Shown here piece after piece: positions 4,173 through 54,631 of a stretch of DNA of 56,427 nt (positions within the stretch are counted from its first letter, which is position 1; the number at the start of each line of letters is the position of its first letter). A program made the translations under genes and the position numbers. The stretch is from NCBI GenBank assembly GCA_017547805.1, contig JAFYOR010000051.1, positions 1 through 56,427 of the forward strand. The letters run 5' to 3'. This DNA is from Clostridia bacterium. GTDB taxonomy: Bacteria > Bacillota > Clostridia > Christensenellales > Aristaeellaceae. The notes beneath the pieces were generated by a model that was given only the letters and a program-made list of their open reading frames with translations, was not told the DNA's origin and ran no database searches.

Positions 4173-5174
4173 ATGAAGAAGATTCTTGCTCTGGTCCTTG
4201 CGTGCATGCTGATGCTGTGCGCCGCTGCCTTTGCCGCCGCCGAGCCGGCCGGCAACGTCATGATCTACTCTTCCGCCGGTGAAGACGTCGTTCTGGCGAT
4301 CAAGGAAGCCTTTGAGGCGAAGTATCCGGGCGTGAAGCTGGATTACTACGCTGCCACCTCCGGCAAGTGCGTGACCAAGCTGGCCACCGAGTTCCAGTCC
4401 GGCACCGTCGCGTGCGACGTGTTCTGGCCGGCGGATTTCTCTACCACCATCAGCCTGAAGAACAACGGACAGCTCGAGCAGTACGTTTCCCCGTTTGCCG
4501 AGAACATCGACCCGCAGTTCAAGGATCCGGACGGCTACTTCGCCGGCGCCCGCATGCTGGTTTTCGGCCTGACCTATTCCACCATCGCCTGCACCGAGGA
4601 TGAAATCCCGGATAATTACGATGGCCTGCTGACCGACAACTTCTACAACCAGATCCTCATGTCCGACCCGTCCGGCTCCGCCTCCACCCGCGCGCTGGTC
4701 TATGCGTTCGTCAACAACGAGAAGTACGGCTGGGAATTCTTCGAGAACCTGAAGAAGAACGCTGCGGAGCTGGAATCCTCCTCCGGCGCGGTCAACAACA
4801 AGGTTGCGTCCGGCTCCTACAAGCTGGCCTTCGGTCTTGACTACACCTCCCGCAACCTGATGGCGGACGGTTCCCCCATCAATTACAAGGATACCACCGA
4901 TATGGTCGCCATGGCGGCTCCGATCTGCATCCCGGTCGGCGCGCCGAACCTTGAACTGGCGAAGCTGCTCTACGACTTCATCCTCGATCCGCAGGGCGGC
5001 CAGAAGATCCTGACCCAGTTCTACACCACGCCGGTCGTTTCCGGTGTTGACCTGCCGGAAGGCATGCTGGACTCCGCCTACATCGCTGAAAAGTGCATGC
5101 CCATCGATTTCGCGGATCTCTCCGAGAAGAGCACCGAACTGCTTGACCGTTTCGACGCGATTTTCAAGAAGTAA
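4173..5174 (+). CDS. ABC transporter substrate-binding protein, iron(III)/organophosphate type
   Basis: A 333-residue periplasmic-type binding protein. The N-terminal signal peptide (MKKILALVLACMLMLC, then an Ala-rich cleavage region) is followed by the first strand VMIYSSAGEDV typical of the FbpA/AfuA/PhnS group of binding proteins. Members of this group bind ferric iron, sugar phosphates or aminoethylphosphonate, so the name alone does not fix the ligand. The ATG at 4173 is chosen because of its GAGAGGA site; an upstream in-frame ATG would put residues before the signal peptide. It is first in an operon with two ATPases, a fused permease and a phosphoglycerate mutase, which argues for a phosphorylated ligand as strongly as for iron. 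Confidence 0.88.
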   Translation: MKKILALVLACMLMLCAAAFAAAEPAGNVMIYSSAGEDVVLAIKEAFEAKYPGVKLDYYAATSGKCVTKLATEFQSGTVACDVFWPADFSTTISLKNNGQLEQYVSPFAENIDPQFKDPDGYFAGARMLVFGLTYSTIACTEDEIPDNYDGLLTDNFYNQILMSDPSGSASTRALVYAFVNNEKYGWEFFENLKKNAAELESSSGAVNNKVASGSYKLAFGLDYTSRNLMADGSPINYKDTTDMVAMAAPICIPVGAPNLELAKLLYDFILDPQGGQKILTQFYTTPVVSGVDLPEGMLDSAYIAEKCMPIDFADLSEKSTELLDRFDAIFKK

Positions 5175-5400: not shown

Positions 5401-6492
5401 TTGGCAAAGATCAAGTTCGACCATGTGACTGTCAAATACGGCAATCACACCGTCGTCAAGGATTTCTCTCTGGAAGTCAAAGAAGGCGAGATTCTGGGCA
5501 TCGTCGGCCCGTCCGGCTGCGGCAAGACCTCGCTGGTGCGCAGCCTCGGCGGTTTCCTCAATCCCGACGAGGGCGATATCTATATCAGCGACAATCTGGT
5601 ATACAGCAAGAAAAAGAGGATCAACCGCTCCCCGGAGACACGGCGTCTGGGCATTGTCTTCCAGGATTACGCGATCTGGCCGCATCTGTCGGTATATGAC
5701 AACGTCGCCTATCCGCTTAAGAAGCGCAAGACGCCCAAGGCGGAAATCGACAAGCTCGTGCGTCAGGCGCTTGAGCAGGTCCGCATGACCGGCTATGAAA
5801 AGCACATGCCGGCGCAGCTTTCCGGCGGACAGCAGCAGCGCGTCGCCATTGCCCGTGCGCTGACGTCCTCCAATGACATCATCATCATGGACGAGCCGAT
5901 CACCAACCTTGACGCGAAGCTGCGCGAGGGCATGCTCGACGAGATCCGTGTCCTGCAGCAGAATCTGCACACGACCATCATTTATATCACCCACGATCAG
6001 GAAGCTGCGCTGCAGCTTTGCGACCGCGTGGTCATCATGGAGCCCAACGGCAACATCTGCCAGATCGGCACGGACGAGGACATCATCGAGCGTCCGGCTA
6101 ACCGCTTCGTCTTCAAGTTCATCGGCGTGAGCAACTTCATCCCGGTGGTGGAAGAGAAGGGCAAGTACTATGTCTATCAGGCGAAGAAGGAACTGTGCTA
6201 CGCGGAGAAGAAGCCGAAAGGCTTCATCAGCGGCAAGCCCAGCGTGATGGGCATTCGTCCGATGGATATCGTGTTTGACGATGAAAGCCCGGTTAAGGGC
6301 GTCATCACGCAGGCGGTCTTCCTTGGCACGCTGTTTAACTACTTTGTCAAAATCGGCGGCGCCGAGCTGCGCGTGCAGCGTTCGATGCTCGATTCGCTCG
6401 ATGGACGCGAGTATAAGGAAGGCGAAACCGTCGGTCTGCGTTTCCTGAATGAAAAGTACTACGACGCTGAAGAGGGGGAGGTACGCAAATGA
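5401..6492 (+). CDS. ABC transporter ATP-binding protein (first of two)
   Basis: A 363-residue ATPase of the FbpC/PotA type. Walker A GPSGCGKTS is near residue 38, the Q-loop in VFQDYAIWPH, the signature LSGGQQQR near 140, Walker B IIIMDEP and the switch His in ITHDQ. A TOBE-type regulatory region occupies the last ~110 residues. The start is taken as TTG at 5401, with AAAGGAG 10 bases before it; an upstream ATG at 5320 would add 27 residues with no family counterpart. It overlaps the permease gene by 4 bases (ATGA), so the two are translationally coupled. Confidence 0.88.
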   Translation: MAKIKFDHVTVKYGNHTVVKDFSLEVKEGEILGIVGPSGCGKTSLVRSLGGFLNPDEGDIYISDNLVYSKKKRINRSPETRRLGIVFQDYAIWPHLSVYDNVAYPLKKRKTPKAEIDKLVRQALEQVRMTGYEKHMPAQLSGGQQQRVAIARALTSSNDIIIMDEPITNLDAKLREGMLDEIRVLQQNLHTTIIYITHDQEAALQLCDRVVIMEPNGNICQIGTDEDIIERPANRFVFKFIGVSNFIPVVEEKGKYYVYQAKKELCYAEKKPKGFISGKPSVMGIRPMDIVFDDESPVKGVITQAVFLGTLFNYFVKIGGAELRVQRSMLDSLDGREYKEGETVGLRFLNEKYYDAEEGEVRK

Positions 6493-8216
6493 GCATGTCC
6501 TTCACCAGAAAGAATTCCGACCTTGCCCGCATGGACGGAAAGAAGTTCGGTCTTGACCAGATCATGACCGTGCTGTGCTTCCTGATTCTGACCACGGTCG
6601 TCATCCTGCCGGTGGTCATGATCATCTACAACACCTTCTGGGACGGCACGAAGATCGACCTTGAGATGTTCGGCCGCGTGATTTTCCGCGAGGAAAACCT
6701 CACGGCGATGAAAAACACGGTCATCATCGCAGTCATTTCCACGATCTTTGCGACGATCATCGGCGTGTTCTTTGCGTGGCTCCTTGGCCGCAGCGACATT
6801 CCGATGAAGGGCCTGATGCGCTGGCTGTTCTCCATTCCGTTCATGATTCCGCCGTTCCTGGCGGCCATGGCGTGGGATATGATGTTCTCCGGCCGCGGCG
6901 GTTATGTCAACCGCTTCCTGATGAGTATTTTTAACCTCAAGAGTGCGCCGTTTAACATCAACACATTGGCGGGCATCATCGTCATTGAGGTTGTGTATTA
7001 TTTCCCGTTTGTCTATATGCAGGTCGTTTCCGCGCTGGAGCGTATGGACCCGACGCTGGAAGAATCCGCCCGTATCGCGGGCGCCAAGCAGTGGTATGTC
7101 ATCCGCACGGTTACGCTTCCGCTGACGATTCCGGCGATCTCTTCCGGCACGCTGCTGGTACTCATTACGTCTCTGTCCAACTACGGCATTCCGCGCATGG
7201 TCGGCAGCTCGAAGAATATCTTCACCCTGCCCACCAAGATCGTTGACCTTGTCAACCGCGCCGGCGGTGATTTCCAGGGTATCCGCGAGGCCACCGCGCT
7301 TTCCGTCGTTCTGGTCATCGTCGTGTCCATTGCGCTCTTTGTCCAGCGCAAGCTGCTCAAGGCTGGCCGCTATGACATCATCAAGGGTAAGTCCATGCGC
7401 CCGACGCTCATCAAGCTGCGCGCGGCGAAGTACCCGCTGCTCATCGTCTCCCTCGTGTTCCTGACGCTGGTCGTTCTTGCACCGCTGGTCATCATCGTTC
7501 TGGTCAGCCTTCTGCGCGCGTATGGTCTGCCGTTTGCATGGGAGAACTTCACGCTGGCGAACTACACCAAGATTCTCGTGAACAACAAGGCCGTCACGGA
7601 TTCCATCCAGAACTCGCTGTTCCTTGGCTTCAGCTCCGGCTTTGTCTGCCTGTTCCTGGGCGTTATGCTTTCCTACGTCATCTACAAGGTCAAGCCGAAG
7701 GGAAGCGGCATTCTGGAGACGCTTGCCGTTCTGCCGTATTCTCTGCCGGGCACGGTTATGGCAATCGGCTGTATCCTCGCTTGGTCCGGCGCGGTGTTCG
7801 GCATTACGCTGTATAACAGCATCTGGATCATCATGGTTGCGTATATTGCGCGCTACCTGTCCTACACCCTCAAGAGCTGCTCGGCTTCCCTGCAGCAGGT
7901 TCACGTATCGCTGGAAGACGCGAGCCGTGCCTGCGGCGCTACGCACATGGAATCCCTCGCTGACGTGACGCTGCCGCTGATCAAGCCGGCGATGATTTCC
8001 AGCTTCTTCATGGTGTTCCTCCCGGCGATGCGCGAACTGACGACCTCTGTCCTGCTCTATGGCCCCAACAGCCGTACGCTGGGCGTTGCGATTCAGAACC
8101 TGCGCGACAACGGCTATATGACGCAGGCGGCTGCGCTGTCCGTCGTGGCGATTATCATCATCATGGTCTGCAACGGCGTGGTCAAGTTCATCACCCGTGA
8201 CCGGAAGGGAGTGTAA
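6489..8216 (+). CDS. ABC transporter permease, fused two-domain (FbpB type)
   Basis: A 575-residue inner-membrane protein made of two tandem MetI-like permease domains, roughly residues 30-290 and 310-570. Each ends in an EAA-type loop that contacts the ATPase: LEESARIAGAKQWYVIRTV in the first half and LEDASRACGATHMESLADV in the second. One polypeptide thus supplies both permease halves, as in FbpB. About twelve hydrophobic segments are visible. It lies between two different ATPase genes, which means the two halves could each recruit their own ATPase; that is inference. Confidence 0.9.
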   Translation: MSMSFTRKNSDLARMDGKKFGLDQIMTVLCFLILTTVVILPVVMIIYNTFWDGTKIDLEMFGRVIFREENLTAMKNTVIIAVISTIFATIIGVFFAWLLGRSDIPMKGLMRWLFSIPFMIPPFLAAMAWDMMFSGRGGYVNRFLMSIFNLKSAPFNINTLAGIIVIEVVYYFPFVYMQVVSALERMDPTLEESARIAGAKQWYVIRTVTLPLTIPAISSGTLLVLITSLSNYGIPRMVGSSKNIFTLPTKIVDLVNRAGGDFQGIREATALSVVLVIVVSIALFVQRKLLKAGRYDIIKGKSMRPTLIKLRAAKYPLLIVSLVFLTLVVLAPLVIIVLVSLLRAYGLPFAWENFTLANYTKILVNNKAVTDSIQNSLFLGFSSGFVCLFLGVMLSYVIYKVKPKGSGILETLAVLPYSLPGTVMAIGCILAWSGAVFGITLYNSIWIIMVAYIARYLSYTLKSCSASLQQVHVSLEDASRACGATHMESLADVTLPLIKPAMISSFFMVFLPAMRELTTSVLLYGPNSRTLGVAIQNLRDNGYMTQAAALSVVAIIIIMVCNGVVKFITRDRKGV

Positions 8217-8219
8217 GGC

Positions 8220-9323
8220 ATGGATCAGATCGTTCTTAAGAACGTAACCAAGCGGTTTACGACCAAAACGCTGGGAACTGTTACGGCGGTCGATAATTTT
8301 AACCTCAACGTCAGGGAAGGCGAGTGCTTTTCCTTCCTCGGTCCCTCCGGCTGCGGCAAGACGACCACGCTGCGAATGATTGCGGGCTTTGAGGATCTTT
8401 CCGAAGGCGAAATCTATCTGGGCGGCGCGCCCGTTTCCATCCGCTCCAGAAATCTGTATGTGCCGCCGGAGGACCGCGGTCTGGGCATGGTGTTCCAGGC
8501 GTTTGCGGTCTGGCCACACATGAACATCTTTGATAACGTTGCTTATCCGCTCAAGGTCAAGAAGGTTCCGGCGGCTGAAATCCGCGAACGCGTGAAGAAG
8601 GCGCTCAAGCATTGCAGCCTCGACGGTATGGAGAAGGTCTTCCCGTCGGATCTTTCCGGCGGACAGCAGCAGCGCATTGCGCTTGCCCGCGCGATCGTCA
8701 CCAGTCCGAAGGTTATGCTGCTGGACGAGCCGCTTTCCAACCTTGACCCGAAGCTGCGCGAGACGATGCGCTTTGAGATCAAGAAGCTGCAGAAGGAATT
8801 CAACTTTACCATCATCTTTGTTACCCATGACCAGAGCGAGGCGATGGCGCTGTCCGACCGCATGCTCGTCATGGATATGGGCGTTGTCAAGCAGATCGGC
8901 ACGCCGACTGAGCTGTACAACAACCCGACGGATAAGTTTGTGCACAGCTTCCTTGGCCAGTCCAACTTCACGAACGTGGAGCTTTCCGGCGGCCGCGTGT
9001 ATCTCAAGGGTGACCGCAGCGTCCCGCTGGGCATGGAAGCGCCGAAGACTGGCGAAACAGAGATGCTCCTTGCGACGCGCCCGAACACCATCGAAATCAA
9101 CCGCGAGGAAGGTTTCAGGGGTACCGTCGTCAAGCGCGTTTTCCTGACGGATTTCACCGAGTATATCGTTGCGCTGGGCGATCAGACCGTCCGCGTGCAG
9201 GCGCCGCACCGCAATATGTTCCGGGCGGGCGAAACGTGCTACCTGCGCTTTGCCAATCCGATCTGGTATTCCGCGAAGAAGGATGCCTCCGACGCGGAGC
9301 GTGAGCGCAGAACCCTCGTTTAA
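8220..9323 (+). CDS. ABC transporter ATP-binding protein (second of two)
   Basis: A 367-residue ATPase, paralogous to the one at 5401 but clearly diverged. It has Walker A GPSGCGKTT, signature LSGGQQQR, Walker B MLLDEP, switch His in VTHDQ and a C-terminal TOBE region. All catalytic motifs are intact in both copies, so neither looks like a decaying duplicate. It starts 3 bases after the permease stop. One transporter operon with one fused permease and two full ATPases suggests an ATPase heterodimer or two alternative homodimers. Confidence 0.88.
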   Translation: MDQIVLKNVTKRFTTKTLGTVTAVDNFNLNVREGECFSFLGPSGCGKTTTLRMIAGFEDLSEGEIYLGGAPVSIRSRNLYVPPEDRGLGMVFQAFAVWPHMNIFDNVAYPLKVKKVPAAEIRERVKKALKHCSLDGMEKVFPSDLSGGQQQRIALARAIVTSPKVMLLDEPLSNLDPKLRETMRFEIKKLQKEFNFTIIFVTHDQSEAMALSDRMLVMDMGVVKQIGTPTELYNNPTDKFVHSFLGQSNFTNVELSGGRVYLKGDRSVPLGMEAPKTGETEMLLATRPNTIEINREEGFRGTVVKRVFLTDFTEYIVALGDQTVRVQAPHRNMFRAGETCYLRFANPIWYSAKKDASDAERERRTLV

Positions 9324-9355
9324 GTCGATACAGGGAAAACCCTCTCTAGCTGGAA

Positions 9356-9416
9356 GGGCCGTATGCGGCACGGAGACACAGATCTGTGTGTTCGCGCGGT
9401 ATACGGCTCTTTCTGT
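9356..9416 (+). terminator. Long hairpin between transporter and mutase genes
   Basis: GGGCCGTAT (9356-9364) pairs with ATACGGCTC (9401-9409), with an inner ACACAG/CTGTGT stem and a U-rich tail (TTTCTGTTCTG). It is a partial terminator or processing site that separates expression of the transporter from that of the mutase. Confidence 0.5.
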
Positions 9417-9463: not shown

Positions 9464-11041
9464 ATGAATAAGGTTGAAGGACGCGGCGGCGCGAGCCTTG
9501 CTGCGGCAATCAGGGAAGCATATCAAAGAGGCGCCGGCGATTATTACATGGAGCCGCTGGTCGCCGTGGATGAATCGGGCAAGCCGGTAGGCAAGGTAGA
9601 GGATGGGGATTCGGTCATCTTCTGCTGCCGCCGCGGCGAGCGAGAGATTGAGCTGACGGAAATGTTCACCGACGAGGCGTTTTCGGCGGTCGAGATTGAA
9701 AAGCGCAAGGATCTGCATTTCGTCCTGTTTACGCTCTATCACGAAAAGTTTGCGGGCATGCCGGTTGCCTTTGGCCCGGAGAAGCTTGTGGGCACGCTGG
9801 CGCAGGCGATCAGCGAAGCGGGAAAGACGCAGCTGCACTGCGCGGAATCGGAAAAGTACGCCCATGTGACGTTCTTCTTTAACGGCGGAAACAATGTTCC
9901 CTACGCGGGTGAAACGGATATCCGCATTCCGTCTCCGCGCGGCGTGGCGTTTGAAACCGTACCGCAGCTGAGTCTGCCGGAGGTCACGCAGCGCGTGATC
10001 GGCGAGCTGGGCAAGACGGACTTTGTTGTGGTGAATTTCGCCAATGGCGACGTCATCGGTCACACTGCCAGCAATGAAGCGAAGATTGAAACAGCGAAGT
10101 GCGTCAGCGAGAATCTTGATCAGCTCGTTCAGGCGGCGAAAGAAAAGGACTACGTGATCATGATCACGGCGGATCATGGCAACCTTGAACTGATGACCAC
10201 GCCAAAGGGGACGCCGGACGTCGCGCATACGAAGAACCTCGTGCCGTTTGTGCTGATTGATCCGCGCGGCGAATCCGTTCTCCTGAAGGAGGGAAAGAGC
10301 CTGTCCTGCGTTGCGCCGACGGTGCTTGAGTGGATGAATATCAATAAGCCGGCGGAAATGACGGCGGAAAGCCTGACGGCCTGCGCACCGGCGGACGGCG
10401 GACGCAAGGTTCTGCTCGTGATTCTCGACGGCTGGGGCATGGGCCGCGAGGACGAAACCAATCCGATTCACATCGGCCGGACGGAGCTGTGGAAGAAGCT
10501 CTTTGCTTCCTATCCGCATACGCTGCTGCATGCGTCCGGAAAATGGGTCGGCCTCGGCGAAGGCAAGGCGGGCAATTCCGAAGCCGGACACAGCAATCTC
10601 GGCGCTGGACGTACCGTTCCGCAGGACGATATGCGCCTTGCTGCCGCGATGGAAGACGGCTCCTTTGAAAGCAATCCGATCTTCCTTGAGGCGATCGATC
10701 ACGCCCGACGCAGCAAAAAGGCGCTGCATCTGCTGGCCTATCTTACGAAGCTTTCTTCCCATGGATCCATTGTTTACGCCCAGAAGCTGGCCGCGATGGC
10801 GAAGGATCTTCCGCAGGTGTATTTGCATCTGATTCTGGATGGGCGCAGCACAGAGCCCGGCAGCGCGCCGGAACTGGTGCTCGAGCTGGAAGAGGAGCTT
10901 GGCAAGATCGGCGCAGGCGTGATTGTTGACTGCGTAGGCCGCGGCATCGTTCTGGATCGCGACCTTGATTATGCAAAGGTAAAGCGGGGCTATGACGCGA
11001 TGGTGCTGGGTACGGGAACGGCATATTCCTTCAAGGGATAA
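9464..11041 (+). CDS. Circularly permuted cofactor-independent phosphoglycerate mutase
   Basis: A 525-residue protein holding every segment of GpmI (2-/3-phosphoglycerate interconversion) in rotated order. Residues 11-305 match the second half of normal GpmI: EKYAHVTFFFNGG at 130, NFANGDVIGH at 191, ITADHGN at 234, VAHTKN at 253. Residues 314-525 match the normal first half: VLLVILDGWG at 316, KAGNSEAGHSNLGAGR at 368 with the phospho-serine, GR at 492 and DRD at 498. The new C terminus (YDAMVLGTG) and new N terminus (SLAAAIREAY) are neighbours in the usual protein. Metal and substrate residues are kept, except the LDGRD motif, which is LDGRS at 458-462. The ATG at 9464 has GAAAGGA 9 bases upstream. 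Length equals a full GpmI, so nothing is lost. It lies in the transporter operon. Confidence 0.9.
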   Translation: MNKVEGRGGASLAAAIREAYQRGAGDYYMEPLVAVDESGKPVGKVEDGDSVIFCCRRGEREIELTEMFTDEAFSAVEIEKRKDLHFVLFTLYHEKFAGMPVAFGPEKLVGTLAQAISEAGKTQLHCAESEKYAHVTFFFNGGNNVPYAGETDIRIPSPRGVAFETVPQLSLPEVTQRVIGELGKTDFVVVNFANGDVIGHTASNEAKIETAKCVSENLDQLVQAAKEKDYVIMITADHGNLELMTTPKGTPDVAHTKNLVPFVLIDPRGESVLLKEGKSLSCVAPTVLEWMNINKPAEMTAESLTACAPADGGRKVLLVILDGWGMGREDETNPIHIGRTELWKKLFASYPHTLLHASGKWVGLGEGKAGNSEAGHSNLGAGRTVPQDDMRLAAAMEDGSFESNPIFLEAIDHARRSKKALHLLAYLTKLSSHGSIVYAQKLAAMAKDLPQVYLHLILDGRSTEPGSAPELVLELEEELGKIGAGVIVDCVGRGIVLDRDLDYAKVKRGYDAMVLGTGTAYSFKG

Positions 11042-11053
11042 GGATGATCGTAA

Positions 11054-11377
11054 GTGAAAGCGTTTCGATGGCTGAAAAGAGATAAACAGGCGCAGGCAAA
11101 TGAAAAGGCAATTGTTTATGTGCTGAGCGTGGAATGTGCGGTGTCGGATAATCGGGATGCGTTTTTTGCTGATTATTTTGATCGTCATGGAATCGGCGTT
11201 CTCCGCAGCCAGAAATGGAATGAAGGCGCAAGAACGAGATATGTCTACACCGTCGTTCTCCCGGACACGATAAGCAGTGCGTCTTTGGTGGATAAGCTGG
11301 CGCGTGTTTCCGGAATTCTCGCAGTAAGGATCCACATGGATTACAGGATACTGCGTAAAACGCTCATCGAAATATAG
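11054..11377 (+). CDS. Small protein of unknown function in the mutase operon
   Basis: A 107-residue protein starting at GTG, 12 bases after the mutase, with AAGGAT as ribosome binding site. The N terminus is basic (KAFRWLKRDKQ). The rest alternates strands and helices, and the segment LVDKLARVSGILAVRIH resembles the end of ACT-like or MgtC C-terminal domains. I do not recognise the family firmly. Tight spacing suggests co-expression with the mutase; a regulatory ACT-like ligand sensor would fit but is unproven. Confidence 0.6.
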   Translation: MKAFRWLKRDKQAQANEKAIVYVLSVECAVSDNRDAFFADYFDRHGIGVLRSQKWNEGARTRYVYTVVLPDTISSASLVDKLARVSGILAVRIHMDYRILRKTLIEI

Positions 11378-41460: not shown

Positions 41461-41585
41461 GTAGAATGTGATGACGGATGGAACCCATGCAATGCGAGGG
41501 TGTGAACCTTGTCAGGGCCGGAAGGCAGCAGCAATAAGCATTGTATCGTATGTGCCGTGGGAATTTTCTGCCCCGAGCATTCTAC
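41461..41585 (+). ncRNA. ffs: Signal recognition particle RNA (small bacterial type)
   Basis: GTAGAATG at the 5' end pairs with CATTCTAC at the 3' end. The middle has the domain IV core GTCAGGGCCGGAAGGCAGCA, with the GGAA tetraloop and asymmetric loop that bind Ffh. About 125 bases long, it lacks the Alu domain of the large Bacillus RNA. Its own promoter and terminator flank it. Confidence 0.92.
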
Positions 41586-50396: not shown

Positions 50397-51503
50397 TTAT
50401 TTGATTTCGCCGTCGGCGATCAGCTTTTTGCTCTGCGCATCGTAGAGCAGCATGTCGCTGCCCTTGAAGGCGAGGTAAACGGTGCTGTCCACCGGGAAGT
50501 CGATGCCGCCGAAGACGACGGATGTGATGATTTCTCCGCCGAGCTTGAGCTTTACCGTCGTTTCCATGCCGGCGGGCAGCGTGGAATAGACGCTTGCCGG
50601 GATGCTGCTGTCGCTCACGATGGAGATGAACTCCGGACGGATGCCAAGGACGACGTTTTCGGGCAGGGACGCAAGCGGCTTGCCGGCGGTGAATGTGCGC
50701 GTGAGGCCGCAGAAGGAAAGCTCGCAGCTGGTTTCGCCGGTTTTCTTTGTCTTTGCGGGCAGGAAGTTCATCGTCGGGCTGCCCATGAAGTCAGCAACGA
50801 ACAGGTTTGCCGGACGCAGATACATATCAAGCGGCGCGGCGTATTGCTGGAGCAGTCCCTTTTCCATCAGGCAGACCTTCGTTGACAGGGTCATCGCCTC
50901 AAGCTGGTCGTGCGTGACGTAGACGAAGGTGGAGTCCGTATCCACATGCAGGCGCTTGAGTTCGGTGCGCATTTCGGTGCGCAGCTTGGCGTCGAGGTTA
51001 CTAAGCGGCTCGTCCATGAAGAGAACCTTCGGGTTGGGCGCGAGGGTACGGGCGATGGCGACGCGCTGCTGCTGACCGCCGGAGAGCTCGCTGGGATAGC
51101 GATGCTCGAACTCTTCGATTTTGAGCATCGCCAGCAGCTCGTCCACGCGCGCGCGGATGCGCTTCTTGTCCCACTTGAGATTCTCAAGACCGAAGGCGAT
51201 GTTCTGATACACCGTCATATGCGGCCAGAGGGCGTAATTCTGAAACAGGAAACCGACGTCGCGCTTGTTGGGCGGGATGTTGATGCCCTTTTCAGAGGAA
51301 AAGACCGTCACGCCGTCGATGATGATTTCGCCCTCGGTCGGCGTTTCGAGGCCTGCGATCATGCGCAGGGTCGTCGTCTTTCCGCAGCCGGAGGGACCCA
51401 GCAGCGTGATAAAGGAGTTGCTGGGGATGGTCAGGTTCAGGTTATCAACCGCGACGAACTTGTCAAAGCGCTTCGTCACGTTTTTCAGGATAATCTCGGG
51501 CAT
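50397..51503 (-). CDS. ABC transporter ATP-binding protein (second system)
   Basis: A 368-residue FbpC-like ATPase: Walker A GPSGCGKTTTL near residue 37, the Q-loop in LFQNYALWPHM, signature LSGGQQQR near 137, Walker B LFMDEP, switch His in VTHDQ and a TOBE region with VVLGIRPEF near 285. Last gene of the operon; the permease stop is 3 bases upstream and the AGGAGG site lies inside the permease end. It is distinct from the two ATPases at 5401 and 8220. Confidence 0.9.
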   Translation of the reverse strand: MPEIILKNVTKRFDKFVAVDNLNLTIPSNSFITLLGPSGCGKTTTLRMIAGLETPTEGEIIIDGVTVFSSEKGINIPPNKRDVGFLFQNYALWPHMTVYQNIAFGLENLKWDKKRIRARVDELLAMLKIEEFEHRYPSELSGGQQQRVAIARTLAPNPKVLFMDEPLSNLDAKLRTEMRTELKRLHVDTDSTFVYVTHDQLEAMTLSTKVCLMEKGLLQQYAAPLDMYLRPANLFVADFMGSPTMNFLPAKTKKTGETSCELSFCGLTRTFTAGKPLASLPENVVLGIRPEFISIVSDSSIPASVYSTLPAGMETTVKLKLGGEIITSVVFGGIDFPVDSTVYLAFKGSDMLLYDAQSKKLIADGEIK

Positions 51504-51506
51504 GGC

Positions 51507-53315
51507 TTAACCTCCTACGCCTTTGTCGATGGATGCGCCGGTGAGCTTGTTGACGATGCCGTTTACCAGCAGCACCACGATGATGATCAGCAGATTGATC
51601 GCGTTGCCGAACTGCGCCCAGCCCTTTTCGCTGTACTGCATGAGCATGGTGGTCAGCAGCGTGTTGCTCGTGGGGACGAGCAGCACGAAGAGCGACAGCT
51701 CGCGCATGCAGGAAACCATCGGCAGCAGATAACCGGAGAGGAAGCTGCTCTTCTGGATGGGGAAAAGGATTCGCAGCATGCGCTTGGGCCACGGCACGCC
51801 GACGATGACCGCCGCCTCTTCAATCTCGCCGGAGAGCTGGAGCATGGCGTTGATGCCCGAGCGCGAGGCGAAGGGCAGGTACTTGACCGAGCCGACCAGC
51901 GCCAGAACGGTGAAGCCGTGCAGGAAGGGAACGCGCGTGCTCAGCGCGAGATAAATTGCGCCGAAGGCGAGGGAAGGCATGAGATACGGGAAGAAGGAGA
52001 GGTTGTTGACGATGGTGGCGAGCTTGCTGCCGCGGCGCTTGACCACGCCGTAACCCACCAGCACGCCGCAGGTGCCGGCAAAGAAGGAGCAGGTCAGCGC
52101 AAGCAGGAGGGAGAAGCCCAGCGCCTTGATAACCTTGGCGGAGAGCAGGATGCCGGTGCTGTCGCCCTGGTCAAGGTACGTGAGATTTCGTCCGATCCAG
52201 AAATCCAGCGTCATGTTGGAAAGCGAGTAGTCGCCCGCCTTGATGATCACGGATTCCAGCGCAAAGGTGAGCAGCGGCACGACGGCAACCAGCACCAGCA
52301 GTACGGTCAGGCCGATGGCGATGGGTAGATTGGCCTTGCGCAGGTTGATCAAAGAGATCTGCGCGGCCTTGCCGGTGACGGTGGTGTAGCTCTTGCGGCT
52401 GCCGGTGACGTACTGGTTGAGCGCAAGGATCGCCACGCCGAAGATGATCATCACGCCAGCGATGATGTAGCCCTGACCGGGATAGTTGTTGATGAGCGAC
52501 ATCATCTTTGTGGAAAGCACATAGTAACGTACCGGGCTGCCAAGGAACACGGGCACCGAGTACGCGCTCATGGAGCTGGCGAAGACCAGCAGGAAGGTTG
52601 AAAGCAGCGCGGGGCGCACGATGGGCAGCGTGATGCGCCAGAGGATGCGCACGCGGCTGGTCTTGAGGATCGTCGCGGCTTCTTCAAGGTTGGCGTCCAT
52701 GTTGCGCAGGATGCCGCCGATAAGGATGTAGGCAAAGGGCGCATAGTGCAGGCCCAATACCATGGAAATCGGGAAGAAGCCATAGACGAACCATTCCGGC
52801 ATATTGACGCCGAAAACGGCCGCCATGATGCCGTTGGATGTGCCGGCGCCGGCGTTTACGTTCTTGAAGAATGTCTGCCACCACGTCGCCAGCGTCCATG
52901 CGGGCATGATGTAGGGGAAGACAAAGACGGTGGAAATGAACTTCTTGAATTTGAGGTTTGTGCGCGTGATCAGCCACGCGACGCTGCCGCCGAAGACGAT
53001 GGAAATCAGCGACGCCGTGACGGCGACGGCCAGGGTGTTAAACAGCGGCTCGTAGAAGGTAAGCTTGCTGTACTGGTTTTTGGCCGTGGCAAAAATGCGC
53101 TCAAGGCTGTAAAGCGTAAAGTCGCCCGCTGTGAGCTTGACGGCGCGCGCCTCCTTGCCGGCGTGCACCGTGATGGTCTCAAGGAAGAGAACGATCAGCG
53201 GATAGAGCGTGAGCATGCATAGCAGCACACAAAACACCACGAGAATCACGTTCGCGGGCTTTGAAAAGAACGCGCGGAGCTTTGCACGCTGCTTTGCAGA
53301 GAAGGGATTTTGCAT
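51507..53315 (-). CDS. ABC transporter permease, fused two-domain (second system)
   Basis: A 602-residue FbpB-like membrane protein with two MetI-type permease halves, each ending in an EAA loop (NLEEAATILKTSRVRILWRI near residue 205 and EIEEAAVIVGVPWPKRMLRI near 500). About twelve hydrophobic segments are visible. The start ATG 53315 has GAGGTG 6 bases upstream. A strong hairpin separates it from the binding-protein gene, so it is expressed at a lower level. Confidence 0.9.
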   Translation of the reverse strand: MQNPFSAKQRAKLRAFFSKPANVILVVFCVLLCMLTLYPLIVLFLETITVHAGKEARAVKLTAGDFTLYSLERIFATAKNQYSKLTFYEPLFNTLAVAVTASLISIVFGGSVAWLITRTNLKFKKFISTVFVFPYIMPAWTLATWWQTFFKNVNAGAGTSNGIMAAVFGVNMPEWFVYGFFPISMVLGLHYAPFAYILIGGILRNMDANLEEAATILKTSRVRILWRITLPIVRPALLSTFLLVFASSMSAYSVPVFLGSPVRYYVLSTKMMSLINNYPGQGYIIAGVMIIFGVAILALNQYVTGSRKSYTTVTGKAAQISLINLRKANLPIAIGLTVLLVLVAVVPLLTFALESVIIKAGDYSLSNMTLDFWIGRNLTYLDQGDSTGILLSAKVIKALGFSLLLALTCSFFAGTCGVLVGYGVVKRRGSKLATIVNNLSFFPYLMPSLAFGAIYLALSTRVPFLHGFTVLALVGSVKYLPFASRSGINAMLQLSGEIEEAAVIVGVPWPKRMLRILFPIQKSSFLSGYLLPMVSCMRELSLFVLLVPTSNTLLTTMLMQYSEKGWAQFGNAINLLIIIVVLLVNGIVNKLTGASIDKGVGG

Positions 53316-53357
53316 GGGTTCACCTCAGCTTTGTCTCAGCTTTGTAGGGAAGAAAAA

Positions 53358-53385
53358 GGGCTGTAAAGCTTGCGCTTTACAGCCC
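53358..53385 (-). terminator. Attenuating hairpin between binding protein and permease genes
   Basis: GGGCTGTAAAGC pairs perfectly with GCTTTACAGCCC; TTTTTCTTCC follows on the minus strand, giving partial termination. Confidence 0.75.
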
Positions 53386-53479
53386 TCTTATTCGTGCGTG
53401 AGCAGTTTCGGAGGGCTATTTGCCCGAACGAAACGGGTTTTTAAGCCGCCGCGAAGCGGGTGCGGGCACAGACCGCCGC

Positions 53480-54631
53480 TTACTGAAGGTACATGGTCAC
53501 GAAGGAATAGACGTCCTCGTAGTTGTCAAGGATGTACTCCGGATCTTCCATGACGAGGGAAGCCTTCCAATCGGAGAGCGGCAGGTCGTTGTCCAGCGGC
53601 GCGATTTCGGTGTTGGTGGAGTAGGCGCCAATGCTCTTGCCCCAGGGCTTGAAGCCGTCGGCAGTCATCAGATACTCGATGAAGAGCATCGCGGTGTAGG
53701 GACGGGAGGCGTTGGAGGAGACCAGCGCATACATCGGATACATGAAGCCGGAGAACGGCTCGATGATGGTGCCGACTTCAGCGGCAACGTACTGACCGAC
53801 GGTCAGGTTCTCGGTGTAGACGGAAGAGGAGCGCAGCTTGGAAAGAACGAACAGACCGGCCTTGCCAGCGGCGGTTTCCTGAGAAAGCTCCTCAGCGAGG
53901 GTCGTATCGGAGTTGCCGAAGGAGCAGTTCGCCAGGAACTCGGCGATCCACTTGTAGCCGGCGTTTTCGAATTCGCCCAGCTCGATCTCCTTGCCGTAGA
54001 GGTTCTTGTAGGCTTCGGCCAGCTTGCCGGACCATTCCTCATTGGTGAGCATGACCAGGAAGTTCATGTTGACCTGCTCGGCGTCCGGGGTCTTGAAGAG
54101 GATGTTGCCCTTGAACTGCGGCTCGGTCAGCTGCCAGACGTTGGTGATGGCGGGAACGTTTTCGCCCTTGTTGTTCCAGATGAAGACCTTGTTGATGAAC
54201 TGATGGATCAGCGGGTTCTGGTCGCCCTCGGCGATGTTGGCCTTGACGGAGGCCGGAACGAAGTTGACGAGGTAGCCGGTGTCAAGCGCCATGGACTGCA
54301 GGGACGCGCCGTCCTGAATCATGACCATGTCCGCGCCCTTCGCCTTGCCTTCGATCTCGGCGGAGAGCTTGGTGTAGATTTCGGCGTCCTTGAGGTTGCT
54401 GCCCTCAAAGGCGATGCCGTAGAGCGCGCCGAAGTTCTCGGCGGCGGTCACGATGCGGCTGGTGTTGCCGTAGACGATGAAGGTGCCTTCTTCAGCGAGC
54501 GCCTTTTCCACGAGCTCGTCATGGGTCAGGGCTTCGCCGGCTGCGCAGATGTCCGCGATGGACTCGGCAAAGGCGGAGGCGGCGGTGAGCGCCAGAAGCG
54601 CGCACAGGAGCAGAGCGATAAACTTCTTCAT
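53480..54631 (-). CDS. ABC transporter substrate-binding protein (second system)
   Basis: A 383-residue secreted binding protein. The signal peptide is MKKFIALLLCALLALTAASA with cleavage after AFA. FIVYGNTSRIVTAAENF near residue 51 is the first lobe of iron(III)-type binding proteins, and YPMYALVSSNASRPYTAML near 295 belongs to the second lobe. The ligand is unknown; family ligands include iron, sugar phosphates and small organic molecules. Codon use is strongly biased, suggesting high expression. No regulator is adjacent except the XRE gene in the opposite direction. Confidence 0.87.
   Translation of the reverse strand: MKKFIALLLCALLALTAASAFAESIADICAAGEALTHDELVEKALAEEGTFIVYGNTSRIVTAAENFGALYGIAFEGSNLKDAEIYTKLSAEIEGKAKGADMVMIQDGASLQSMALDTGYLVNFVPASVKANIAEGDQNPLIHQFINKVFIWNNKGENVPAITNVWQLTEPQFKGNILFKTPDAEQVNMNFLVMLTNEEWSGKLAEAYKNLYGKEIELGEFENAGYKWIAEFLANCSFGNSDTTLAEELSQETAAGKAGLFVLSKLRSSSVYTENLTVGQYVAAEVGTIIEPFSGFMYPMYALVSSNASRPYTAMLFIEYLMTADGFKPWGKSIGAYSTNTEIAPLDNDLPLSDWKASLVMEDPEYILDNYEDVYSFVTMYLQ

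Follow-up and report, generated by a model that had tools for sequence, protein, structure and literature searches.

The locus raises the question of what a 525-residue open reading frame can be when it carries the motifs of the phosphoglycerate mutase GpmI/iPGM in the wrong order. It lies in a contig of 56,427 nucleotides from a Clostridia bacterium, and this whole stretch is referred to as the window. The first-pass annotation had read the frame as a complete but circularly permuted GpmI, and all of the landmark motifs that it named are present in the ORF in rotated order. Comparison with solved structures by phmmer bears the reading out, as both parts of the protein align with B. stearothermophilus iPGM (PDB 1ejj), residues 15–305 with 1ejj 219–509 and residues 315–521 with 1ejj 5–213, leaving 1ejj residues 214–218 as the sole uncovered stretch at the cut. 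The gene is laid out as follows.

9464..11041, forward strand: circularly permuted iPGM gene, a 525-aa ORF homologous to GpmI/iPGM
9506..10378, forward strand: old C-terminal part, residues 15–305 (1ejj 219–509), by phmmer
10379..10405, forward strand: joint from the old C to the old N terminus, residues 306–314, by phmmer and comparison of the joint across copies
10406..11026, forward strand: old N-terminal part, residues 315–521 (1ejj 5–213), by phmmer

Profile searches gave the same swapped order. TIGR01307 (NCBIfam) matched in two stretches, scoring 446.1 bits where 330.65 is the cut-off, and the stronger of them pairs residues 9–304 with profile positions 210–503; a second GpmI model, NF003897, was not reached (356.7 versus 862). 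Pfam iPGM_N covered residues 394–519 (profile 3–130) and, in the genome search, also 9473–9742 (profile 125–216), and the metalloenzyme superfamily model PF01676 passed its gathering score (178.8 bits versus 24.3). The short linker that had been proposed between the old termini exists, with its limits at 306–314 and not at 303–313. In an ordinary iPGM, the phosphatase domain is interrupted by an inserted transferase domain. The resulting order of phosphatase-1, transferase and phosphatase-2 is absent from the permuted protein. Its cut site falls between 1ejj residues 213 and 219 and so, as had been suggested, within the transferase domain, whose limits we take to be about 77–310 in 1ejj. The domain nesting is therefore inverted: the phosphatase domain is contiguous and sits between two transferase parts. 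A structure model of the whole protein was a confident prediction, with 37% identity to iPGM in the half of the protein that could be superposed (2.4 Å). Residues 314–525 folded alone gave no usable model (pLDDT 64, pTM 0.57), so the first half was placed by its sequence and by the confident model of the entire protein, and not by a structural match of its own. The 525-aa protein is a complete natural circular permutation of the GpmI/iPGM fold.

The host assembly is MAG-like (113 contigs, 83% complete), which is what a local rearrangement, an assembly join or a decaying functionless gene might be expected to come with, and the first-pass annotation had itself named the first two as a danger. 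A search of other genomes for the same order excludes this explanation, to which we give practically no credence. The permuted order was found in 43 genomes from seven families (f1, f10, f112, f148, f161, f167 and f173), all within a single phylum, and additionally in one more record; f148, f161, f167 and f173 lie outside the class of the window. One-piece matches, i.e. those in a single open frame, occurred in 3/60 relatives, in 8/396 genomes at the level of the order, 2/391 at that of the class and 12/398 at that of the phylum, and in 29/103 genomes from family f10, these sets overlapping so that their union is the 43 genomes. The wide search used a threshold of E ≤ 1e-78 or 1e-85, at which distant copies may be missed. 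Two f10 matches (G1228 and G1229) are partial, with the joint still spanned, and the copy of G1064 (locus L067) is truncated at its end. Copies also occur in a sheep-rectum Clostridia MAG record (L036, whose contig is that of G016) and in a Lachnospiraceae MAG record (L037) that apparently lies outside the 43 genomes. In a plasmid search, which bears on spread beyond the phylum, all 30 listed of 44 records were two-piece, like ordinary copies.

The breakpoint is common to all 41 distinct permuted copies, with a joint of 6–9 residues, although identity to the window protein ranges from 83% down to about 38%. Codon comparison of the window copy with the 83%-identical copy of G016 gave a dN/dS of about 0.13, against 0.145 for the normal GpmI of the same genome pair. 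The permuted gene is under purifying selection. The invariance of the catalytic residues described below and the behaviour of the two halves in trees stand equally against an artefact. The fetched loci supplied 41 distinct permuted copies and 47 distinct normal ones, which we aligned once the permuted sequences had been rotated; the normal ones all come from this phylum, for the most part from best-scoring loci, so that the tree is unrooted relative to other iPGMs. In a thinned tree of the whole rotated protein, 27 permuted and 40 normal copies separated with an SH-aLRT of 100, and separate trees of the two halves each returned a permuted clade (100 and 100), which fits a single rearrangement of one gene. 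The permuted copies thus form one deep clade, most simply the product of one event.

No normal-order ancestor carrying the sequence signature of the permuted group was found among the 47 normal copies and nine divergent normal-order copies from relatives. The latter are 28–34% identical to the halves and keep DGRD, VHS and NFRxDR, which indicates that the signature goes with the permutation. As a side observation, the divergent normal-order iPGM of some relatives (L136–L144; roughly 30% identical to the window protein) carries SETQK and FRGDR motifs, G004 and G020 have two such copies each, and one frame has, by eye, a signal-like stretch near its start.

We then compared the active sites, assigning residue roles and 1ejj numbers as we take them to hold for iPGM. 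The positions that matter in the window protein are listed here.

9623..9646, forward strand: CCRRGERE, residues 54–61, with substrate Arg57 and Arg60 kept
10577..10579, forward strand: Ser372, at the nucleophile position (1ejj Ser62), by alignment
10754..10765, forward strand: SSHG, residues 431–434, with His433 (1ejj His123) kept and flanks altered from G-V-H-S
10847..10849, forward strand: Ser462, in place of 1ejj Asp154 (DGRD), by alignment

Barring gaps in the truncated copy, 14 of the 15 catalytic, metal and substrate positions checked are invariant in both groups. Asp12, Ser62, Asp403, His407, Asp444, His445 and His462 do not vary across the 41 permuted and 47 normal copies, and seven of the eight substrate residues checked are kept in permuted copies, including five Arg and His123. 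The catalytic Ser, the metal ligands and the two Arg of CCRRGER are thus retained, as first noted from the window sequence. The replacement of the DGRD Asp by Ser462, noted there too, proved general: the Asp154 position is occupied by Ser in each of the 40 permuted copies that extend over it (one has a gap), by Asp in 47/47 normal copies and by Asp in 9/9 divergent normal-order copies. Asp154 of 1ejj is presumably the residue that handles the free hydroxyl, and its loss may impair the ordinary mutase reaction. In total, twelve columns separate the permuted from the normal copies by a fixed difference, and the same signature spans the clades linked to cyclic 2,3-diphosphoglycerate (cDPG) synthetase and to inositol genes (see below). 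These switched columns cluster around the substrate, 9 of 12 lying within three residues of substrate residues; among columns that both groups conserve identically, the figure is 20 of 91 (Fisher p 0.0005). In CCRRGERE, C55, R56 and E61 are subfamily-specific, with N, F/Y and A in normal copies. Two papers name residues of iPGM: PMC5382265 gives the nucleophile and the metal ligands by their C. elegans numbers, and PMC3145672 mentions Lys336.

The protein therefore resembles GpmI/iPGM (TIGR01307; PDB 1ejj, 1o98) in full-length homology after rotation, nucleophile, metal ligands and seven of eight substrate residues, and differs from it in swapped segments, inverted nesting, the Asp154-to-Ser change with 11 further fixed columns, and a deep separate clade. 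It is unlike phosphopentomutase (NF003766, 34.7 versus 256; NF009049, 42.2 versus 254; both cut-offs missed) and unlike ApgM (TIGR00306, 33.6 versus a cut-off of 320). The fold of PGM3/AGM1, another phosphomutase, is unrelated to that of iPGM. These alpha-D-phosphohexomutases offer a parallel, as a phosphomutase family in which a circular permutation has arisen naturally, yet there the transposition involves no more than about 60 residues of a single domain (PMC5570346). In the open-licence literature that we searched, we came across no account of iPGM being permuted in nature, in line with the first-pass annotation, and no metalloenzyme-superfamily member with this order. A 2010 survey of bacterial phosphoglycerate mutases (PMC2964296) has no word beginning with 'permut', and a title on a permuted phosphoglycerate kinase appears in a reference list among the literature matches. 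A central glycolytic fold has here been cut open, re-closed and retained as an old subfamily with its nesting inside out. To our knowledge, no other member of the metalloenzyme superfamily has this order. The protein is an iPGM homologue of an apparently undescribed branch and should not be filed as GpmI, because two defining features of GpmI, segment order and Asp154, are both altered. Automatic annotation can hide such a permutation, as profile scores are summed over stretches regardless of their order; since the GpmI equivalog cut-off is passed, the permuted protein would probably be named GpmI by such pipelines.

The host genome also encodes the second, normal gpmI whose presence had been put forward as a check (C48:23841-25346, next to PGK and a triosephosphate-isomerase-like ORF that was recognised by eye), together with an ApgM above cut-off. 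A normal GpmI is present in 20 of the 24 permuted-bearing genomes checked. The four that lack it, three f161 genomes and G1187 (59% complete), all have an ApgM above cut-off; for GpmA, 18 genomes were tested and G1187 alone exceeded the cut-off. The permuted enzyme was considered as the only phosphoglycerate mutase of f161, which has neither normal GpmI nor GpmA over cut-off, and this was rejected as ApgM is present. A housekeeping role is weakened because other phosphoglycerate mutases exist in the same genomes.

Of the kinds of neighbour described below, the window has only an ABC importer, encoded upstream.

4173..5174, forward strand: periplasmic solute-binding protein of the importer (phnS2, 75.7 bits, far under the cut-off of 392.75)
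5401..6492, forward strand: ABC ATPase (best model PhnT2, under cut-off; scanned as 5407–6489)
6489..8216, forward strand: two-domain ABC permease (best model PhnU2, under cut-off)
8220..9323, forward strand: second ABC ATPase (best model PhnT2, under cut-off), 140 bases 5' of the permuted gene
9352..9414, forward strand: strong RNA hairpin between this ATPase and the permuted gene (z -5.6 for a 143-base stretch)

The hairpin core occurs once in the window, no Rfam family was found at 9352–9414 at gathering level, and the hairpin has no counterpart in G016, where the gap before the permuted gene is one base. The best PDB matches of the window binding protein are chains of Fe3+ ABC binding proteins (6fjl, 6hhb), followed by 8x1a and 4r72, with the pyridoxal-phosphate binder P5PA lower. 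A profile of seven linked binding proteins instead ranked 8x1a, 4r72 and P5PA first; we take 4r72 to be AfuA. Since the nearest solved relatives of the window protein are named ferric-binding proteins, the ligand of its importer could even be iron. According to the available text on AfuA, this protein, earlier predicted to bind iron, binds hexose and heptose phosphates (PMC4546632).

We surveyed the neighbours at 24 loci, with genes from a simple caller; each family took its name from one or two members that were scanned, and blastp clustering supplied the others. In f148, f161 and f173, the permuted gene follows an ABC ATPase in 6/6 loci, and in five of them a homologue of cDPG synthetase of about 446 aa is encoded close to the start of the run, the sixth locus beginning at a contig end. 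In those five loci it shares the gene run with the importer and the permuted gene (L088 4916-6256, L089 from 161, L090 4664-6022, L091 4364-5707 and L096 1067-2398). A profile of four of the five copies matched PDB 8ork with 532 bits (E 9e-159, positions 2–441 on 5–454), the fifth (L089) being assigned by blastp clustering. cDPG is a solute of methanogens, and it is worth recording that bacterial homologues of the archaeal cDPG synthetase share a run with an AfuA/PhnS/ferric-type ABC importer. A GntR/UTRA regulator is present in four of these loci, and no inositol gene was recognised in any of them.

In f10 and f112, the setting is different. A HAD-family gene lies immediately upstream of the permuted gene in 11/11 loci, a PHP protein and a TM0415-like PfkB occur in 9/11 (two of the nine PfkB were compared with the PDB), and IolG in 8/11. 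The inositol genes belong to two unlike pathways, of IolG/E/D type in G044 (IolD, IolE and IolG in locus L039) and of IolG/IolN/UxaE type in G277 (IolN and UxaE in L050). Type II GAPDH is found downstream in five loci and a second PGK in four of these; in four f10 loci, both follow IolG in the same gene run. G226 has GAPDH-II and PGK at another locus, and the window and G016 genomes (83% and 77% complete) lack GAPDH-II and a full second PGK. Several loci also carry transketolase halves, malate-racemase-like LarA and malic-enzyme genes. At L051 (10611-19500), L054 (10744-19500) and L102, archaeal-type GAPDH-II and the second PGK make up a shadow lower-glycolysis set inside an inositol gene cluster, together with malate-racemase-like LarA and malic enzyme and, in L051 and L102, a split transketolase.

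The four f167 loci showed none of the cDPG synthetase, inositol or PfkB/PHP neighbours; RapZ is upstream in three and a phosphoglucosamine-mutase-like gene downstream in three. L037 has an ABC ATPase upstream, three HAD genes nearby and an overlapping metallo-beta-lactamase-fold gene downstream, and L036 (G016) has two ABC gene sets upstream and a 164-aa protein without family match adjoining the permuted gene. HAD motif I usually has a second Asp two residues after the nucleophile Asp. The motif was found in 39 HAD proteins near the permuted gene (L037, L039, L049-L054, L097-L100), sometimes up to four paralogues in a row, and all 39 have Gly at that place (mostly DxGGT or DxGNT); these proteins may not be ordinary phosphatases.

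With about even confidence, we read the enzyme as an old specialised paralogue that applies iPGM phospho-serine chemistry to a phosphoglycerate-type substrate, which we infer, outside housekeeping glycolysis. Two metals would activate Ser372, which would take a phosphoryl group and hand it on, and the Arg/His cluster would hold a phosphoglycerate-like molecule such as 2- or 3-phosphoglycerate or 2,3-bisphosphoglycerate, supplied by uptake or by a side pathway encoded next door. The five Arg of the iPGM site presumably grip carboxylate and phosphate, and the retention of all five argues for a phosphoglycerate-type substrate; the loss of Asp154 and the gain of Arg56 argue for a changed acceptor end, e.g. 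on a bisphosphorylated glycerate. The redundancy with GpmI or ApgM speaks for this reading too, as do the neighbours that relate to phosphoglycerate, namely the cDPG synthetase homologue in five loci and the type II GAPDH with a second PGK in four f10 loci. The original suggestion of an active mutase or a new activity on a phosphorylated compound is supported. In f148, f161 and f173, cDPG synthetase would be the natural partner of the permuted enzyme. A more specific salvage route can be drawn from this, though we consider it distinctly unlikely: the importer would take up cDPG, a reversed cDPG synthetase would yield 2,3-bisphosphoglycerate and ATP, and the permuted enzyme, as a 2,3-bisphosphoglycerate phosphatase or mutase, would deliver phosphoglycerate to glycolysis, with the Asp154-to-Ser change and the Arg added beside the Arg cluster making room for the second phosphate. 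The accessible part of one paper (PMC1224877) reports that the M. fervidus synthetase is reversible (cDPG + ADP + Pi to ATP), that the M. thermautotrophicus enzyme appears irreversible and that cDPG occurs in Methanobrevibacter smithii; the first and last of these make the route conceivable.

Two other functions have to be weighed against the specialised phosphoglycerate paralogue. The protein could be a plain additional 3PG/2PG mutase like GpmI, an isoenzyme expressed from the operon in which the permutation and Ser462 are tolerated with little changed. The 14 retained active-site positions, the passed TIGR01307 cut-off, the GAPDH-II and PGK genes in the run of four f10 loci and the three f161 genomes without normal GpmI would all suit such an enzyme; we nevertheless think it rather unlikely, given the strict exchange of Asp154 for Ser between the two groups and the presence of another phosphoglycerate mutase in 24/24 genomes checked, which in f161 is an ApgM. 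Less probable still in our judgement is an enzyme, whether mutase or phosphatase, that acts on inositol phosphates or some other organophosphate taken up by import, the permuted fold having moved to a cyclitol or sugar phosphate. The f10/f112 PfkB, PHP and IolG neighbours do point to inositol rather than glycerate, and this inositol link, which includes two unlike pathways, is not accounted for by the phosphoglycerate reading. The binding proteins of the linked importers also lie close to 4r72 and P5PA in profile, and AfuA binds hexose phosphates in the available account (PMC4546632). TM0415 is described, in the text available, as a PPi-dependent inositol kinase that turns PPi and inositol into inositol 1-phosphate (PMC5931981). 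Against this stand the phosphoglycerate site, in which His123 and every one of the five Arg are retained, the f148/f161/f173 loci with cDPG synthetase and no recognised inositol gene, and the single 12-column signature across both clades. The substrate is open to direct test, given the signature, the presence of GpmI or ApgM in the same genomes and the linkage to cDPG-synthetase, importer and inositol genes, and these features may bring to light a so far unrecognised route for phosphate esters in Clostridia and the phylum to which they belong.

Some further features of the window were recorded. A 107-aa ORF at 11054-11377, 12 bases 3' of the permuted gene and with no Pfam match, may be co-transcribed with it. 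The minus strand carries a second ABC importer of similar type at 50397-54631 (ATPase, two-domain permease and solute-binding protein), and the only Rfam match at gathering level in the window is a Bacterial small SRP RNA at 41476-41575.
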